Part shown: piece after piece, positions 3,843-33,507 of the stretch | Numbering within the stretch: position 1 is the first letter of the stretch | Layout: every line of letters begins with the position of its first letter | Translations under genes and position numbers: made by a program | The notes under the pieces: model-generated | What the model was told of the DNA's origin: nothing | The model's input: the letters and a program-made list of their open reading frames with translations, nothing else | Database searches by the model: none | Origin: a virus | Reading direction: 5' to 3' (one strand) | Length of the DNA stretch: 39,128 nucleotides | IMG/VR virus record: IMGVR_UViG_3300049489_001239 | Location: 1-39,128 of that record

Positions 3843-5243
3843 GTGCAAGCAGGGCGCGGCCTCGGCTGGCTGTCGCGGGGCTTCGGCGGCCTGCGGCAGA
3901 CGACGCCGCGTGTTGTCACGGCAGGGCGCGGCGCGGCGTCGATGTTCCCGCTGTCGATCAGCTCGAATGGCCGCTACCTGCAGCAGGCAGACGGCACGCC
4001 GTTCCTGCTGAAGGGCGACACGGTCTGGTCGCTGGCGACGAACGCCACCACCACGCAGATCGACTCATATCTCGACGACCGCCAGGCCAAGGGCATGACG
4101 GCCGTGCTGTTCTCGGCCCCCGAGCGCGCGTACACCAACCAGACCCCGACCTACCGCAACGTCAACGGCGACGACCCGTTCACCAGCCACAGTGGCGACA
4201 CGACCAACTGGGTGCTGAACAACGCGTACTGGGCCCACGTCGACTACCTGGTCAACGAGTGCCTGGCACGCGGCATCGTGTGCATGGTGAACCCGGCGTA
4301 CTGGGGCTATGGCGACACGCCGCCCAGCCTGGATGGGTGGGATCAGGAGATCAGCAGCGCCAGCGACGCGGCCCTGCAAGCCTATGGCGCAGCGCTGGCG
4401 AACCGCTACACGCAAGGCAACGTGATCTGGTGCCTCGGCGGCGACGACGACCTCGGCGCCAGCGGCGACTACGGCAGCGTCACCGATCGCACCAAGCAGT
4501 GGCAGATCGTCGTCGGCATGCGCACGGTGCGCACCACGGACCTCATCACGTTCCACACGGCGCGCAACGGCACAAGCGGCCCGAACGGCGAGGCGGCGCT
4601 GGCCTGCAACTCCACGTATGCCGGCTTCAACCTGAACAACGTCTACAGCCAGGACGGCACCACCGACGCGGCCGCTCTGGCGAGCACGGCCTACGCACGC
4701 AGCCCCACGCGGCCGCTGTTCCACATCGAAGCCGGTTACGAGAACACGGACAGCGACGCCGAGAACATGACGGTGCCGGCCATCCAGACCGTGCTGCGCG
4801 GCGGCATCGTCGGCTTCTTCGGTGGGCACGACGCACTCTGGCACCTCGGCAACGTGGCCCCGAGCACGGGCGGCGCCGCGTCGGTGCTGTCCACCTACCT
4901 GTCCGGTTCGTGGTTGACGCTGGGCTACTTCGGGGCGCTGCTGGATTCGTACCAGTGGCACCTGCTCGAGCCGAAGATCGACACCAGCCTCGTGACGACG
5001 GCGCTCGGGTCCGGCGCGTCGGCCATCTGCCCGGCGCTGGCATCTGACGGCTCGTTCGCCCTGATCTGGACGAACGGCTCGAACCTCACGGTCAACATGG
5101 CCGCCTTCACGCCGAGCAGCGTTCGCGCCCGCTGGTGGAACTGGCAAACCGGCGCCTTCACGGCCATCGCCAACTACTCGAACACCGGCACGCAGGCCTT
5201 CACCGCGCCAGGCGCGCGCATCCTCGTTCTGGACGCGGCATGA
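3843..5243 (+). CDS. Apiosidase-like glycoside hydrolase (DUF4038/GH140-type)
   Basis: 466 residues. From about residue 36 the protein reads as a DUF4038 (apiosidase-like) TIM-barrel: LSISSNGRYLQQADGTPFLLKGDTVWSL is the typical N-terminal strand. NVIWCLGGDDD (Asp201 region) fits the acid/base position, and PLFHIEAGYE (Glu296/Glu300) the nucleophile position. The last ~90 residues (PALASDGSFALIWTNGSNLTVNM onward) match the small beta domain (collagen-binding-like) that often follows DUF4038. A GTG at 3843 gives a basic 33-residue extension; the ATG at 3942 (MFPLSIS) begins exactly at the enzyme domain and is an alternative start. There is no signal peptide, so it is more likely a virion-borne polysaccharide-degrading enzyme than a secreted one. 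Catalytic residues are assigned from motif context. Confidence 0.75.
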   Translation: MQAGRGLGWLSRGFGGLRQTTPRVVTAGRGAASMFPLSISSNGRYLQQADGTPFLLKGDTVWSLATNATTTQIDSYLDDRQAKGMTAVLFSAPERAYTNQTPTYRNVNGDDPFTSHSGDTTNWVLNNAYWAHVDYLVNECLARGIVCMVNPAYWGYGDTPPSLDGWDQEISSASDAALQAYGAALANRYTQGNVIWCLGGDDDLGASGDYGSVTDRTKQWQIVVGMRTVRTTDLITFHTARNGTSGPNGEAALACNSTYAGFNLNNVYSQDGTTDAAALASTAYARSPTRPLFHIEAGYENTDSDAENMTVPAIQTVLRGGIVGFFGGHDALWHLGNVAPSTGGAASVLSTYLSGSWLTLGYFGALLDSYQWHLLEPKIDTSLVTTALGSGASAICPALASDGSFALIWTNGSNLTVNMAAFTPSSVRARWWNWQTGAFTAIANYSNTGTQAFTAPGARILVLDAA

Positions 5244-8104
5244 CCACCGCCAGCGACGCATTCACCCGTGCCAACGAGACGCCCGTAGCGTCGCCGTGGG
5301 CCACGGTCACGCCGCTGGGTGGCCTGAACCTCGCGAGCAACGCGCTCACCGGCGTCACCGACGTCGCGCGTGCTTCGCTCTACAACAGCGGCACCTGGGG
5401 CAACGATCAGCGCGTCGATGTCGTGGTCGGCAACCTGCAAGGTGGCACGCGGTACGCCGAAGCGTGGGTGCGCGGAAGTACGGGCGGAAACGGCTACAAG
5501 GTCTACACCGACGGCACGACGGGCGGCACCGCCATCGCCCGCATGGACGCTGGCTCCGAGGTGTCGCTGCAAGCGGTGGCAGTTGCGTTCGCGGCCGCCG
5601 ACACGCTGGGCATCGGCATCGTCGGCACGACGATCACGCTCTACAAGAACGGCGTGGCACAGACGCCGACGGCCACAGACGCCACCTATGCCAGCGGCTT
5701 GCCCGGAGCTGGCGCCTATGGTCTGGCGACGATCGACGACTGGACCGCCGACGACGGCGTCAGCTCGGCTACGCTTGAACAAGAAGGCGCCCGCGTCGGT
5801 GCCGACGACGGCAGCGAAAGCGCCCACACCTGGCTGGCCGCGCAGGACGCGAACGCCACGGTTGCGCTGGGCACCGCGTTCCTGGTGCGCCTGCTCGTCA
5901 ACGGCACCGGCGACCCCGCCAGCGCCAGCCACGTGCTGCGCTACCAGAAGAACGGCGCCGGCGGCTTCGTGCCGGTGCCGGTGGGCGCGAACAGCGCGCC
6001 GGCTCTGAGCTACGGTGCCATCGGCACGCTGGCCTACTCGGCGGCCAGTGGCACCAGCGTGGCGCCCGCCTACCCGGCCGGCATCACGACGCGCAGCGCG
6101 CTCATCATGCTGGTCGGCCAGAAGCCGACCACCGCGAACGGCGGCACCGTCACTACGCCCAGCGGCTGGACGATCATCGGCAGCATCACCGGTGCCAACG
6201 ACGGCGACACCGGCGGGTACACGACGACGCTGGCTGCCGACACCGGCAACACCAACCTCTTCGCCTACGCGAAGGACACGGTCAGCGGCAGCGAAAGCGG
6301 CACGCTCACCGTGACGGTGGGCGACAACAACGTGGCCTGGGCCGCGATCATCCGGCTGCAGAGCAGCGACGATTGCACCTGGTCGTTCGCCGTCGCCACC
6401 GGCAAGGACACCAGCGCCGGCAGCGTGAGCATCGCTACCGGCAACCTGGCGGTGCAGGCCGGCGACCACCTGCTCGGCGCGATGGTGGTCCCCACGGACG
6501 TGACCACGCCCAGCCAGTTCAGCGCCGAGGCGCTGTCGCAGACCGGCACCACCTTCGGCACCGTCACCGAGATCGCCGAGCCAGACTCCACGGCCGGCAA
6601 CGACATCGGCGGCTTCATCGTCGAGGCGCCGGTCAGCAGCGGCAGCGGCAGCGGCGCCGTCACGATGACGGCGACGGCGGGCGGCACCACCACCAACGTG
6701 CGCGGCCCCGGCTTGGTGCTGCGGGCGCGCGCCGTGTCGCTGGTGCGCGAGCTGTATGTTGCCCCCAGCGCCAACATCGCCGCCGGCGGCGAAGCCACCA
6801 CCGCGCGCCTCACCGCGCCCAGCGGCAAGACCACGGCCGACTTCATCACCGGCCGCCGCTGGGACGACGAGAACGGCACCGACGCGATCGACATCACGGT
6901 CGACGACTACACCGAGCTCGAGTGGTGCCTGAACACCCAGGCGCCGGCCACCAACGGCGACGCGTACCAGTTCCGCGTGTACGCCGGCGCCACGGCGCTG
7001 GACACCTACGCCGTCACGCCGCAGGTCACGCTGTCCAGCGGCGGCTCTTCGCCGCTGCCGCCTGCGCGCCGCCGCCGCGCCCGCGCCTTCGCTGACGATG
7101 CGGGCCTCGACGTCCGGCGCGCCCGCGCCCCGCTGGCGGCCACCTTCGCCACCAACGCGCAGGTGCTGCAGCTCGGCGGCACCGCGCAAGCCGAGCAAGC
7201 CGGCGGCGCTGCCCTCACGCCTGGGGCCGTCACCCTTGCCCTGGGCGGCAGCGCCGAGCGTGAACGCGCCGGCGGCCTTGCAACCACCGCCACCGCCAGC
7301 CTCGCGCTCGGCGGCGTGGCCGAACGTGAACAGCCCGGCGGCCTGGCCACCACCAGCGCCGCCACCGCGACGCTCGGCGGCAACGCCGAACGCGAGCGCA
7401 CCGGCGGCGCCGCGCTCACCCCCGGCGCCGTCACCCTGCAGCTGGGCGGCCAGGCCGAGCCCGAGCGTGCCGGTGGCCTTACCGCCGGTGCCGGCTTGCA
7501 GACGCTGCAGCTGGGCGGCACCACCGCGGCCGAGCTGGCCGGCGGCCTGCAAGCTCAGCCTGGCGCCGTCACCCTGGCCCTGGGCGGCGTTGCCGAAGCC
7601 GAACGCGCCGGCGGCCTGGTGGCAGGCGCTGGCGTGCAGACCATCGCTCTGGGCGGCACGGCCGAAGCCGAACGCCCAGGCGGCGCCGCGCTCACCCCCG
7701 GCGCTGTCACCCTGCAGCTGGGCGGCCAGGCCGAGCGTGAAGCCACCGGCGGCATCGTCGTCGCGGCCGGCGCGCAGATCGCGGCCCTGGGCGGCACCGC
7801 CGAGCGTGAACGCGCCGGCGCCATCACCGCCACGCCCGGCACCGCCACCGTGCAGCTGGGCGGGGCAGACGAGCGCGAGCGCACCGGTGGCCACCAGGTG
7901 GTGCCGGGCGTCGTCGGCATCGCGCTGGGCGGCCTGCGCGAACGCGAACGCGCCGGCGGCCTGGTGGTCACCGAAGGCACGCTGCCGGTCACGCCCACGT
8001 GGCCGGCGGGCGGCACCGCACGCATCGGCGGCAGCCCACTGGCGCAGGGCGGCAGCCGCATCGGCAATTCGCCGCTGCGCAAGAGCACACGAAGGATTGG
8101 CTGA
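5240..8104 (+). CDS. Large virion/fibre-like protein with C-terminal 23-residue repeats
   Basis: 954 residues from the ATG at 5240, which overlaps the stop of the hydrolase gene (ATGA); the frame is open upstream to 5135 inside that gene. The N-terminus (SDAFTRANETPVASPWATVTPLGGLNL) is the start of a concanavalin-like beta-sandwich common in phage minor structural proteins, followed by further Thr/Gly-rich beta domains (about 20-630). An Arg-rich break (PPARRRRARAF, about 610-620) precedes twelve repeats of 22-23 residues (643-916) built around LGG-x-AERERAGG, then a Gly/Arg/Ser tail (GGSRIGNSPLRKS). No signal or transmembrane segment. Position between terminase and portal suggests a head fibre or injected/accessory virion protein; function is unknown. 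The strand is supported by the coherent protein and by overlaps with neighbours. Confidence 0.75.
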   Translation: MTTASDAFTRANETPVASPWATVTPLGGLNLASNALTGVTDVARASLYNSGTWGNDQRVDVVVGNLQGGTRYAEAWVRGSTGGNGYKVYTDGTTGGTAIARMDAGSEVSLQAVAVAFAAADTLGIGIVGTTITLYKNGVAQTPTATDATYASGLPGAGAYGLATIDDWTADDGVSSATLEQEGARVGADDGSESAHTWLAAQDANATVALGTAFLVRLLVNGTGDPASASHVLRYQKNGAGGFVPVPVGANSAPALSYGAIGTLAYSAASGTSVAPAYPAGITTRSALIMLVGQKPTTANGGTVTTPSGWTIIGSITGANDGDTGGYTTTLAADTGNTNLFAYAKDTVSGSESGTLTVTVGDNNVAWAAIIRLQSSDDCTWSFAVATGKDTSAGSVSIATGNLAVQAGDHLLGAMVVPTDVTTPSQFSAEALSQTGTTFGTVTEIAEPDSTAGNDIGGFIVEAPVSSGSGSGAVTMTATAGGTTTNVRGPGLVLRARAVSLVRELYVAPSANIAAGGEATTARLTAPSGKTTADFITGRRWDDENGTDAIDITVDDYTELEWCLNTQAPATNGDAYQFRVYAGATALDTYAVTPQVTLSSGGSSPLPPARRRRARAFADDAGLDVRRARAPLAATFATNAQVLQLGGTAQAEQAGGAALTPGAVTLALGGSAERERAGGLATTATASLALGGVAEREQPGGLATTSAATATLGGNAERERTGGAALTPGAVTLQLGGQAEPERAGGLTAGAGLQTLQLGGTTAAELAGGLQAQPGAVTLALGGVAEAERAGGLVAGAGVQTIALGGTAEAERPGGAALTPGAVTLQLGGQAEREATGGIVVAAGAQIAALGGTAERERAGAITATPGTATVQLGGADERERTGGHQVVPGVVGIALGGLRERERAGGLVVTEGTLPVTPTWPAGGTARIGGSPLAQGGSRIGNSPLRKSTRRIG
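7166..7987 (+). repeat. Twelve tandem 66-69-bp coding repeats
   Basis: In-frame tandem repeats encoding 22-23-residue units of consensus (L/I)xLGGxAERERAGGxxxxPGxxT. Units are divergent overall, but some share near-identical DNA: the stretch beginning at 7405 (GGCGCCGCGCTCACCCCCGG) recurs at 7682 with single-base changes over about 55 bp. The alternation of a short hydrophobic segment, LGG, a charged AERER segment and GG suggests a solenoid or stacked beta/turn array. Confidence 0.85.
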
Positions 8105-25674: not shown

Positions 25675-25886
25675 TGAAGCTGATTCCCGAGTGGCGCCGC
25701 GCGCACCGCATGTTCACCGTGCAGCTGGGCCTTGTCTTCACCGCATGGGGCGCGCTGCCCGCCGAAATGCAGGCCGCGGTGCTTGAGCTGTTGGGCGTTC
25801 CCGTCAACCGCGTGCCCGCCATCCTGGGCCTGGCCGTCATCGTCGGACGCGTGGTGGCACAGGCGTCGGTCAGGAGCACGCGATGA
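25674..25886 (+). CDS. Small membrane protein, possible second holin or antiholin
   Basis: 70 residues, ATG overlapping the holin stop by one base. MKLIPEWRRAHRMFTVQLGLVFTAWGALPAEMQAAVLELLG is followed by a hydrophobic segment (VNRVPAILGLAVIVGRVVAQ). This is a common small-protein type in phage lysis cassettes, with a basic amphipathic start and one or two membrane segments. Operon position suggests a role in lysis timing; the function is not established from sequence. Confidence 0.7.
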   Translation: MKLIPEWRRAHRMFTVQLGLVFTAWGALPAEMQAAVLELLGVPVNRVPAILGLAVIVGRVVAQASVRSTR

Positions 25887-26587
25887 AGCTGCGCGTGTGG
25901 ATGATCCTGCTGGCTGAGGCGTTGCTTGTCGCGGCGCTGCTGACCGCGCTGCCGGCGCAGGCGCAACGCTGCGCACCCAAGACCGCGCTGACCCCAGGCG
26001 CGCCGGGCTCGAACACCGTGCTGTTCAGCGATGCAACCGGCGCCGCGCGGTGCTGGATGTGTCCGTCCACACCAGGCACGGCCGTGGCCAGGTGCTATGC
26101 CGGCCTGTGGCGACCAGACCTGCTGGCCGCGGCCACGGCGAAGATCGCTACCGCGGCCGACCCGTGGGCGCAATTCGACGTCGAGATGCGCGAGGCCGGC
26201 GTTGCGCCAGCGGGTAGCGTCGAGGCCTGCCAGGTCAAGCGCCTGGAGCGCGAAGCCTGCATGCGGCTGTACGTCGACGGCATGCCGGGCTGGATTCCGC
26301 CCACCACGGCGGCCGACGCTGCCACGCTGGGCAAGTGCGGCCCGTCGATCGACTGCACGCCGCCGCCGGCCTGGGTGGTGGATGCGGCCACCAGTGCAGA
26401 CGGAACGCGCCCGGCCTACCCGTTCAGCGCTGGCGTCCGTGGTGAAGTGGCGACAGGCCGAGCGCTGGCGGGGCAGCCCTGCAGGCCCGAGATCGCGCAA
26501 GCGCCGTCGCTCACGGCCGGAACGGTCTGGGCGGCCTACGGGCCGCAGTTCTCGCCGGCCATGTTGGCGCGCTGCCGGCGGCCGTGA
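25883..26587 (+). CDS. Secreted cysteine-rich protein of unknown function (lysis cassette)
   Basis: 234 residues with an N-terminal signal peptide (MKLRVWMILLAEALLVAALL, likely cut after ALPAQA). The mature part has ten cysteines (30, 57, 60, 71, 116, 126, 152, 158, 200, 231), an even number that suggests disulfide bonds in the periplasm. No lysozyme, transglycosylase, amidase or peptidase motif (E-x8-D/C-x5-T, zinc ligands, etc.) is visible. Its start overlaps the previous gene (ATGA), so it is co-translated with the holins, at the place where an endolysin or spanin is usually found. It could be a non-canonical lysis enzyme or a periplasmic accessory protein. Confidence 0.75.
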   Translation: MKLRVWMILLAEALLVAALLTALPAQAQRCAPKTALTPGAPGSNTVLFSDATGAARCWMCPSTPGTAVARCYAGLWRPDLLAAATAKIATAADPWAQFDVEMREAGVAPAGSVEACQVKRLEREACMRLYVDGMPGWIPPTTAADAATLGKCGPSIDCTPPPAWVVDAATSADGTRPAYPFSAGVRGEVATGRALAGQPCRPEIAQAPSLTAGTVWAAYGPQFSPAMLARCRRP

Positions 26588-26593
26588 ACGCCA

Positions 26594-26617
26594 CGCGCGC
26601 CGAGATCTGGGCGCGCG
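26594..26617. other. GC-rich hairpin at convergent gene ends
   Basis: CGCGCGCC (26594-26601) pairs with GGCGCGCG (26610-26617) around an 8-nt loop. It starts seven bases after the last lysis-gene stop and faces the leftward operon from the other side. There is no T-run on either strand, so it is not a standard intrinsic terminator, but it may slow or end transcription at this convergent junction. Confidence 0.4.
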
Positions 26618-26640
26618 AGCCCATGACCCGCTTCTCTGAC

Positions 26641-26671
26641 GTTGAAGTTCTGGTTCCAGGCGCACGAGCCA
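26641..26671 (-). repeat. Truncated template repeat (TR) of a diversity-generating retroelement
   Basis: On the minus strand a 16-nt block TGGCTCGTGCGCCTGG is followed by codons AAC-CAG-AAC-TTC-AAC. The same 31 positions occur in both variable-repeat genes (27309-27339 and 27798-27828), with 4 and 3 differences respectively. All seven differences fall on adenines of this copy and none on the 24 non-adenine positions. AAC-rich codons (peptide CAWNQNFN) are the usual mark of DGR templates. Homology ends abruptly at 26641 on one side and 26671 on the other. It lies 171 nt beyond the stop of the avd-like gene, the normal TR location. Confidence 0.75.
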
Positions 26672-26842
26672 AGATCGTGCAATCTACGTCGCCAGGCCGA
26701 AGGCTCGCGCCGATCAGCGTGGGGACTGCGCCGGGCCGGGCCTGCACGGGGGCAGCGGTCTCCGTGGTGCGCATGGCGGTGGCCTCGTGGGCCAGCGGCA
26801 CGACCAGATTCAGTTTGCGCACGGGCATGGGGGCCTTGACCG

Positions 26843-27208
26843 TCATGCTGCAGGCGCCTTGTTCGATGCGGCCTTGAGCCAGCCGCCGCCCTGCTTGCCG
26901 ATGCTGTCGAGCAGCTTGACCGACTCGGCCCACAGCGCGGTGCTGACGTACCGGCTGTCGTGGCTGACGCGCAGCAGCACGGTGGCCGCACGCAGGCGCT
27001 GCATGAGCGCCTGGATGTGCGCGGCGCGCTCGGCCTTCTGGGTGGCGTTGGCCAGCGCCATCAGGTCGAGCATGTCCACGCAGTGCTGGGTGATCTTCTC
27101 GCCCAGACTGCGCTTCACGCCGCGCGGCATCTGCTGCTGCGCCTTGAGCGCCAGAGCGAGCAGCTGGACGCCGGTGCGGTGGATGGGAAGGTCTGTGTGC
27201 AGGGCCAT
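26843..27208 (-). CDS. avd: Avd-like four-helix-bundle protein (DGR accessory)
   Basis: 121 residues, all predicted helical. The order TGVQLLALALKAQQQMPRGVKRSLGEKITQHCVDMLDLMALANA, then AALMQ-type helix and ATVLLRVSHDSRYVSTALWAESVKLLDSIGKQGGGWLKAA follows the four-helix-bundle/bAvd family: a Pro-Arg...Leu-Gly-Glu motif in helix 2 and a Gly-Gly-Trp ending. Avd is the small pentameric partner that binds reverse transcriptase and template RNA during mutagenic retrohoming. Its neighbours are two genes with variable repeats on one side and a template-repeat fragment on the other, which supports the DGR role. No reverse transcriptase follows. Without that context it could be a generic four-helix-bundle protein. 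Confidence 0.78.
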   Translation of the reverse strand: MALHTDLPIHRTGVQLLALALKAQQQMPRGVKRSLGEKITQHCVDMLDLMALANATQKAERAAHIQALMQRLRAATVLLRVSHDSRYVSTALWAESVKLLDSIGKQGGGWLKAASNKAPAA

Positions 27209-27236
27209 GGTGGTGGCTCAGTGAAGGATCAAAGGA

Positions 27237-27689
27237 TCAAGCGGTGAATCTGCGGATGGCTCGGGCACGGCCTTCCCAGCTCTTGTGGTCGTGGTTCTGG
27301 GTGCCGTAGTCGAAGCCCTGGTACCAGGCGCACGAGCCATCGCGCTCGTGCTGCTCGCCGGACCAGTACCACTCGAGCTTGAAGTGGCTCTTGAGGTTGG
27401 CGTACAGCAGGGCCTGCTCGCTGCGGGTGGGCAACGCGCCGCCGATGGTCTCGGCCCAGTCGATGGCGTCTTGCCAGGTAGTCTTCTCACGCTCACCGGG
27501 CAGCAGCACCAGGTGGTAGTCGATGCTGCCGTCTTCGTTGAGGATGACGCCGGCGTAGTGCTCGCCCTGGCGCAGCTCGATGCCAGCTTCGGGCAGCACA
27601 AGCAGCTTGGACGCAGGCGTCTGCAACTGAGCGATGAGGTGACCCAAGCGTGTGTGCTCGGCCTGGATCTGATCGAGTGTGATGAGCAT
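27237..27689 (-). CDS. DUF1566/C-type-lectin-like DGR target protein A
   Basis: 150 residues. After an N-terminal helix (MLITLDQIQAEHTRLGHLIAQLQ), the domain GEHYAGVILNEDGSIDYHLVLLPGE...TTWQDAIDWAETIGGALPTRSEQALLYANLKSHFKLEWYWSGEQ is that of DUF1566-like lectin folds, ending CAWYQGFDYGTQNHDHKSWEGRARAIRRF. The C-terminal residues from ~117 are the variable repeat; most variable codons are of form NNC, as expected from AAC in a template. The protein has no signal peptide or membrane segment. It is paralogous to the next gene upstream. The binding partner is unknown; DGR targets usually are ligand-binding proteins. Confidence 0.8.
   Translation of the reverse strand: MLITLDQIQAEHTRLGHLIAQLQTPASKLLVLPEAGIELRQGEHYAGVILNEDGSIDYHLVLLPGEREKTTWQDAIDWAETIGGALPTRSEQALLYANLKSHFKLEWYWSGEQHERDGSCAWYQGFDYGTQNHDHKSWEGRARAIRRFTA
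27252..27339 (-). repeat. DGR variable repeat VR1
   Basis: An 88-bp segment from TGGCTCGTGCGCCTGG to the end of the constant block (AAGAGCTGGGAAGGCCGTGC, then CCGAGCCATCCGC) at the 3' end of protein A. Compared with the template fragment it has A-to-T, A-to-G (three) changes only. Compared with VR2 it differs almost solely in first and second positions of NNC codons; the sole difference in the constant block is ATC/GTC. Confidence 0.78.
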
Positions 27690-27719
27690 GGCTGGTGGTG
27701 GGTTGAAAGGATTGAAGGA

Positions 27720-28112
27720 TCAAGCGGTGAGCTGAATCAAGCGGACGGCTCGGGCACGGCCTTCCCAGCTCTTGTGGTTGCTGCTCTGGTCGCCGTAGTT
27801 GAAGTACTGGAGCCAGGCGCACGAGCCATCGAAGGCTTCGCTCGTCCAGTGCCAGCTGGGGTCGAAGTGCTGCTTGGCGTTGGCGAACAGCAGCGCGGCC
27901 ACGGGGCGCGTGGGCAGCTCGGCTTCCAGGTCTTCGGCCCACTTCACGGCGGCCTTCCAGGCCAGCGGCTTGGCCGGCGCGTCGGGCAGCAGGGCCACGG
28001 CGTGGTGCGTGCCGTCGGGCTTGGTGGTGAGGCCGACGAAGATGCCGCCGGCCAGGGGCTGGCCGAGCGGAGGAAGGTCGGAGAGGCGAGTCGGCGAAAG
28101 AACGGTGTCCAT
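27720..28112 (-). CDS. DUF1566/C-type-lectin-like DGR target protein B
   Basis: 130 residues from the ATG at 28112, which is nine bases after AGGAG; an ATG at 28118 is only three bases from that site. The sequence GGIFVGLTTKPDGTHHAVALLPD...LAWKAAVKWAEDLEAELPTRPVAALLFANAKQHFDPSWHWTSEAF is clearly related to protein A (shared WA-E-L...LPTR...LL-AN-K-HF...W-W-S/T-E) and ends CAWLQYFNYGDQSSNHKSWEGRARAVRL. Both genes share 16 identical nt beyond their variable repeats (27232-27247 and 27715-27730), so one arose by duplication. It is the first of the three DGR-type genes in transcription order. Cellular location is probably cytosolic or virion; no signal peptide. Confidence 0.8.
   Translation of the reverse strand: MDTVLSPTRLSDLPPLGQPLAGGIFVGLTTKPDGTHHAVALLPDAPAKPLAWKAAVKWAEDLEAELPTRPVAALLFANAKQHFDPSWHWTSEAFDGSCAWLQYFNYGDQSSNHKSWEGRARAVRLIQLTA
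27741..27828 (-). repeat. DGR variable repeat VR2
   Basis: An 88-bp segment at the 3' end of protein B, same constant ends as VR1. Against the template fragment it shows A-to-C and two A-to-T changes, none elsewhere. Codons that vary between VR1 and VR2 (TAC/CTC, GGC/TAC, GAC/AAC, ACC/GAC, AAC/AGC, CAC/AGC, GAC/AAC) are all consistent with an AAC template. Confidence 0.78.
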
Positions 28113-28151
28113 TGGCATGGGCTCCTGGGTTGTGCCCTTGCGGGCGATAGA

Positions 28152-33039: not shown

Positions 33040-33507
33040 TCATCCTGCGGCGAGGCGTTTCCCTGGGCGGGGCTGCAGCAGCGGCAGCACATCTGCCGCA
33101 ACATCTGCCGCGGCTTCGGGATGTTCCGGCAGCGCGTCAAGTCTGGCGCGCACCATCGCCCACTGTCCTTGGGTCAGCACGCCGAGCGCTTCCAGCACCA
33201 CCGCTAGCGCCTGCTCCAGCGGTAGGTGCTCGTTCGTGTAGGGCTTGGCTGGCTCGGCCGCGAATGGGCCGTTGCCGCCCAGGCGCAGCACCTGCGTGGG
33301 GTGTTTGGGGCCACGGCCGGTCTTGAGGTAATCCGGGCTCAGGTTCACCGCGGCCGCAATGGCCAGCAGTTCCCGTGGAGCCTGACGCAGGTCAGCCTCG
33401 ATGTTGCCGATCGTGCCTTGGCGAACGCCGGCCTTGTCGGCCACTTCCGCTTGGGTCAGGCCGAGGGCTTCGCGCGCGCTGCGCAGTCGTTCGCCAATGG
33501 TGCTCAC
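33040..33507 (-). CDS. CI-type repressor with HTH but no peptidase domain
   Basis: 155 residues from a GTG at 33507. The N-terminal HTH_3 domain is clear (IGERLRSAREALGLTQAEVADKAGVRQGTIGNIEADLRQAPRELLAIAAAVNLSPDYLKTG, residues 4-64). The remainder (about 90 residues) is a linker with a helix (LEQALAVVLEALGVLTQGQWAMVRARLDAL) and a Pro-rich end. The LexA/S24 self-cleavage domain (Ser-Lys dyad) is missing. It is divergent from Cro, and an operator overlaps its start, so it should autoregulate. Lack of the peptidase suggests that induction does not use RecA-stimulated self-cleavage. Confidence 0.87.
   Translation of the reverse strand: MSTIGERLRSAREALGLTQAEVADKAGVRQGTIGNIEADLRQAPRELLAIAAAVNLSPDYLKTGRGPKHPTQVLRLGGNGPFAAEPAKPYTNEHLPLEQALAVVLEALGVLTQGQWAMVRARLDALPEHPEAAADVAADVLPLLQPRPGKRLAAG

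Follow-up and report, generated by a model that had tools for sequence, protein, structure and literature searches.

Among the described diversity-generating retroelements (DGRs), those of Burkholderia phage Magia (MT701587) and Shewanella phage vB_Sb_QDWS (OK094664) are closest to the locus analyzed here. In both phages, two small lectin-like target genes are followed by avd, the structured RNA RT-15 and the template repeat (TR), and both TR and reverse transcriptase (RT) are complete; in Magia, an integrase lies downstream. The DGR of the Bordetella phage BPP-1 has the same avd-TR-RT logic and the same adenine-specific change, and its structured RNA, which recruits bRT-Avd, is placed after TR and before brt (PMC12875486). 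Reconstitution of the BPP-1 system showed that none of RT, Avd and TR is dispensable, and that the cDNA is primed from the spacer 3′ of TR (PMC12875486). Truncated DGR RTs were reported in 2012, and for a duplicate DGR of Pseudogulbenkiania, loss of RT with retention of the distal targets was inferred (PMC3521204).

The DNA stretch analyzed (the window, 39,128 nt of a viral record) contains VR2, VR1, avd, a structured RNA and TR positions 1–31 of a Magia-type DGR, in the same order as in Magia and QDWS; unlike these phages, it breaks off at TR position 31, and unlike Magia it has no integrase. The VR2 gene (27720..28118, minus strand) encodes a DGR target of 132 aa with a C-terminal lectin-like variable domain (PHROG 4245, 1.4e-7), and the VR1 gene (27237..27689, minus strand), which ends in VR1, encodes a second target of 150 aa. 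The matches of both to Pfam Lcl_C were under the cut-off (0.0022 for the VR2 gene and 0.00054 for the VR1 gene). The VR1 gene showed 48-49% identity to the target genes of Magia and QDWS, the VR2 gene product could be aligned with the same targets, and the Magia homologue is annotated as a lectin fold. When the target profiles were compared with solved structures, a weak match to HbP1 was obtained. Both target genes end in their variable repeats and, judged by sequence, would encode lectin folds.

Realignment placed the two 88-nt variable repeats, VR1 (27252-27339) and VR2 (27741-27828), and the TR fragment (26641-26671) on the minus strand, exactly at the coordinates given in a preliminary description of this DNA. 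The fragment corresponds to positions 1–31 of 88 and makes up the first third, at the 5′ side, of a genuine TR. Over these 31 nt it had four mismatches to VR1 and three to VR2, and none of its 24 non-adenine positions was changed in either repeat, as had been described; the mismatches fell on five distinct sites, all five among the seven adenines of the fragment (hypergeometric P = 1.2e-4). VR1 and VR2 differed from each other at 12/88 positions; at 11 of these, the complete TRs found in the closest relatives carry an adenine (P = 2e-6), the single non-adenine difference being position 83, close to the 3′ end. Compared with the TRs of two of these relatives (L093 and L105; related loci are denoted by L numbers), 10-11 adenines and 3-4 other bases were changed in VR1, and 9-10 adenines and 2-3 other bases in VR2. 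The window therefore shows the near-identity of TR and VR with differences at TR adenines that marks a DGR. The TRs of L093, L100, L105 and L010 were identical to the fragment at 30/31 positions. The sole mismatch, position 9, is a G in the TR fragment, VR1 and VR2 alike, and because this G is common to all three, the fragment was identified as the template source of both repeats. No third VR was found in the window, and no copy of the 3′ part of TR (positions 32-88) was found there except inside VR1 and VR2, so the TR of the window consists of positions 1-31 of 88 and has no 3′ end.

The gene among the repeats, avd (accessory variability determinant; 26843..27208, minus strand), is intact and encodes 121 aa. 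It had been called Avd-type, and it matched PHROG 3206, the ‘Avd protein of DGR’, at 1.5e-23, with Pfam bAvd just below the cut-off (1.4e-9), and these family matches were enough to identify it; comparison of the Avd profile with solved structures yielded nothing meaningful. Its identity to the Magia and QDWS avd was 40%, and to the avd of RT-bearing loci up to 84-85%. The mean dN of the window Avd was 0.162, compared with 0.188 among RT-bearing relatives, showing no excess of amino-acid changes. Between avd and TR, a complete RT-15 RNA (Rfam RF03018, model positions 1-192; 26668..26859, minus strand) was found with 160.3 bits against a gathering threshold of 82 (E 8e-40). The relatives scored 138-182 bits at the equivalent place, and the window lies inside this range of RT-bearing loci. 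Whereas the BPP-1 RNA lies between TR and brt, RT-15 lies 5′ of TR in the window. The same RT-15 position, with RT almost directly after TR, was observed in the lineage of L001, L010, L088-L096, L100 and L105.

In all, 162 loci were collected by scanning IMG/VR twice and bacterial genomes once. The exact TR fragment as a query revealed no close relatives, nor did VR1 alone against IMG/VR; protein alignments did find relatives. TR and VR could be paired in 124 non-redundant loci, and in their 265 VR-TR pairs 43% of adenines were changed, compared with 0.9% of other bases. Variation at non-adenine positions among relatives would have spoken against a DGR, and this comparison went in its favour. 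Six IMG/VR contigs (L088, L093, L100, L105, L096 and L010) were closest, with 73-84% identical avd and ~77-82% DNA identity across the cassette; unlike the window, all six carry RT. Relatives with RT and full TR, for which the preliminary description had proposed to search, were thus found, and the order it took as usual (VR gene, avd, TR, RT) was seen in them as VR-VR-avd-RNA-TR-RT. Among the sequences scanned, no parent or sister genome was found in which this very locus is intact.

The homology to DGR loci ends at the junction 26640..26641. With most of the closest relatives, the blastn alignment stopped exactly at 26641, inside TR, and beyond this point no significant match was obtained; neither this break nor the RT-15 RNA had been noted in the preliminary description. 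A concealed end of TR or a leftover of RT was looked for past 26641: at the TR register, 21/38 non-adenine bases matched, but 0.65% of positions do as well and the gapped scores were within the background of other GC-rich DNA; the candidate was rejected as a chance match. On the other side of the junction, a putative late gene is cut after 19 codons and only its 5′ part is left (26584..26640, plus strand); its GTG start overlaps the stop of the upstream gene (GTGA). No homologues of this ORF were found; its position as the probable last late gene was deduced from the relatives L171 and L138, and in relatives the corresponding end of the lysis cluster has the endolysin on it or close by. The gene at 25883, used as a query, revealed no close relatives. 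The cassette had been assigned to an early operon, and this location stood but was refined to the very end of that operon, where it adjoins the late (lysis) operon, which is directly abutted by the TR fragment.

No RT was detected in the record, either as a match to RVT_1 or by tblastn with the Magia RT. The record has no integrase; no endolysin family was found among the scanned proteins, and Phage_lysozyme and Amidase_2 had no match in the record. Absent from the window are therefore TR positions 32-88, RT, integrase, excisionase and a recognisable endolysin, while a gene for a repressor-like HTH_3 protein is kept at 33040-33507. The contig starts just ahead of the small terminase gene and ends just past the gene that precedes the small terminase in L171, at most about 100-200 nt being missing between. 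With virtually the entire genome thus contained in the record, a short fragment is not the cause of the absences. A stretch that is absent from L171 (2709-8104) encodes, between the terminase and head genes, a 433-aa apiosidase-like glycoside hydrolase (3942-5243; PF13204, 4e-44) with a collagen-binding-like domain, and a 954-aa protein (5240-8104) with no PHROG or Pfam match.

According to these results, the window probably carries, in the early operon of what was once a temperate phage of the cos type, a Magia-type DGR that was recently disabled through a real deletion. In the intact stage, RT and Avd, acting on an RNA carrying RT-15 and TR, would have made an adenine-mutated cDNA of TR, and this cDNA would have been written into the 3′ ends of the two lectin-like genes. 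A single event would then have joined TR position 31 to the late gene. One deletion from TR position 31 into the last late gene may have removed RT, xis, int and endolysin together, and it could account for all the absences because RT, xis, int and the lysis end occupy that stretch in relatives: the order in L138 is avd, RT, HNH endonuclease, excisionase, integrase and lysis genes with endolysin, and xis and int follow RT in L139, L129 and L098 as well. VR1 and VR2 would now be fixed, already diversified alleles, and Avd and the RT-15 RNA would be left without template or enzyme. Since RT, Avd and TR were each required in BPP-1, the cassette of the window, by analogy, would be unable to act in cis. 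Avd and RT-15 RNA show no decay, and therefore either the break appears to be recent or the contig was mis-joined. Against a deletion stands the lack of a recognisable endolysin, with which the phage should be defective.

A mis-join is considered rather unlikely. In that case the phage itself would possess a complete DGR together with integrase and endolysin, and the connection of TR with the late operon would be an error of the contig. A mis-join would suit the undecayed avd, RT-15 and both VRs, and the stretch skipped would hold the integrase and endolysin that a temperate phage needs. The break also lies inside TR, which is a repeat of a hypervariable sequence, and such sequences, DGR VRs among them, have been reported to interrupt assemblies (PMC8008677). 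No second contig with this junction was seen, with a DNA pattern that would have revealed it. However, the window has no N run, no sequence common to both sides of the break and able to cause a false join was seen, the contig is otherwise a whole genome that ends in the gap ahead of the terminase gene, and broken DGR cores are present in other contigs too. A DGR-less phage like L171 might instead have gained a VR-VR-avd-TR piece by illegitimate recombination where its early operon ends, RT never having been present. Judged by late genes, L171 is the closest relative (capsid 70%), and it lacks RT; gene order around the DGR differs among relatives. Since the DGR lies before the ParB-like gene more often than after it, recombination could have brought in a cassette that was truncated beforehand. 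This acquisition was judged improbable, given that in L119 ParB and g28388 are followed, as in the window, by avd, with a complete RT coming next, and that L171 retains integrase and endolysin, so that acquisition alone leaves their absence unexplained.

Still more doubtful, and in our estimate very improbable, is a non-autonomous cassette for which a co-resident DGR phage or prophage with matching TR and RT would still diversify VR1 and VR2 in trans. Nearly all of the non-adenine bases that are conserved in TRs are still present in VR1 and VR2, 3′ ends included, near-identical TRs are used by many relatives, and the Pseudogulbenkiania case (PMC3521204) offers a precedent for RT loss with distal targets remaining; but the record supplies neither RT nor full TR, and a recent loss explains the conservation of the VR bases equally well. 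If it were true, the targets would keep diversifying without an enzyme of their own, borrowing template and RT. The earlier reading as the remnant of a DGR was upheld by the 30/31 identity of the TRs and the order in relatives. Of the two states named in the preliminary description, ‘degraded or trans-dependent’, the degraded state is favoured, while the trans-dependent state found no support.

RT was counted at avd loci followed by 1.7 kb or more of sequence (n=140). A full RT was found in 134/140, and 6/140 were broken; two more broken target loci, L037 and L053, had no detectable avd. As in the window, targets are kept and RT is deleted or truncated in L091, L111, L044, L109, L160, L016, L037 and L053; all of these retain a piece of RT, whereas the window retains none and is broken inside TR. 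In three of them an HNH endonuclease (HNH_3) occupies the place of the RT core and partly of avd and TR (L016:3214-3717, L037:6471-6929 and L053:7055-7537), with the C-terminal end of RT (about residues 340-426) still downstream, which looks like repeated replacement of the DGR core by a homing-type endonuclease. In L044 (6421-7158), a deletion has produced an open frame of 245 aa, in which Avd residues 1-39 run in frame into RT residues 224-424. Internal RT deletions were observed in L091 (6435-7060) and L111 (886-1038), with the C-terminal end kept from about residue 374-380 in both. The record of L111 also holds a second, distant RT-like stretch on the opposite strand (L199:8884-9642; 35% to Magia RT).

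Because broken DGR RTs have already been described, the locus in the window adds a decayed member to a kind that is already known, and it leaves the knowledge of how DGRs work unchanged. It offers a clean example in which the enzyme has probably just been lost, beside more than 130 intact relatives. Taken with this locus, the other broken cores (6/140 avd loci and the two without detectable avd) give a rough decay rate for this phage DGR lineage, and they show that diversified target genes can stay intact after the loss of the DGR machine.
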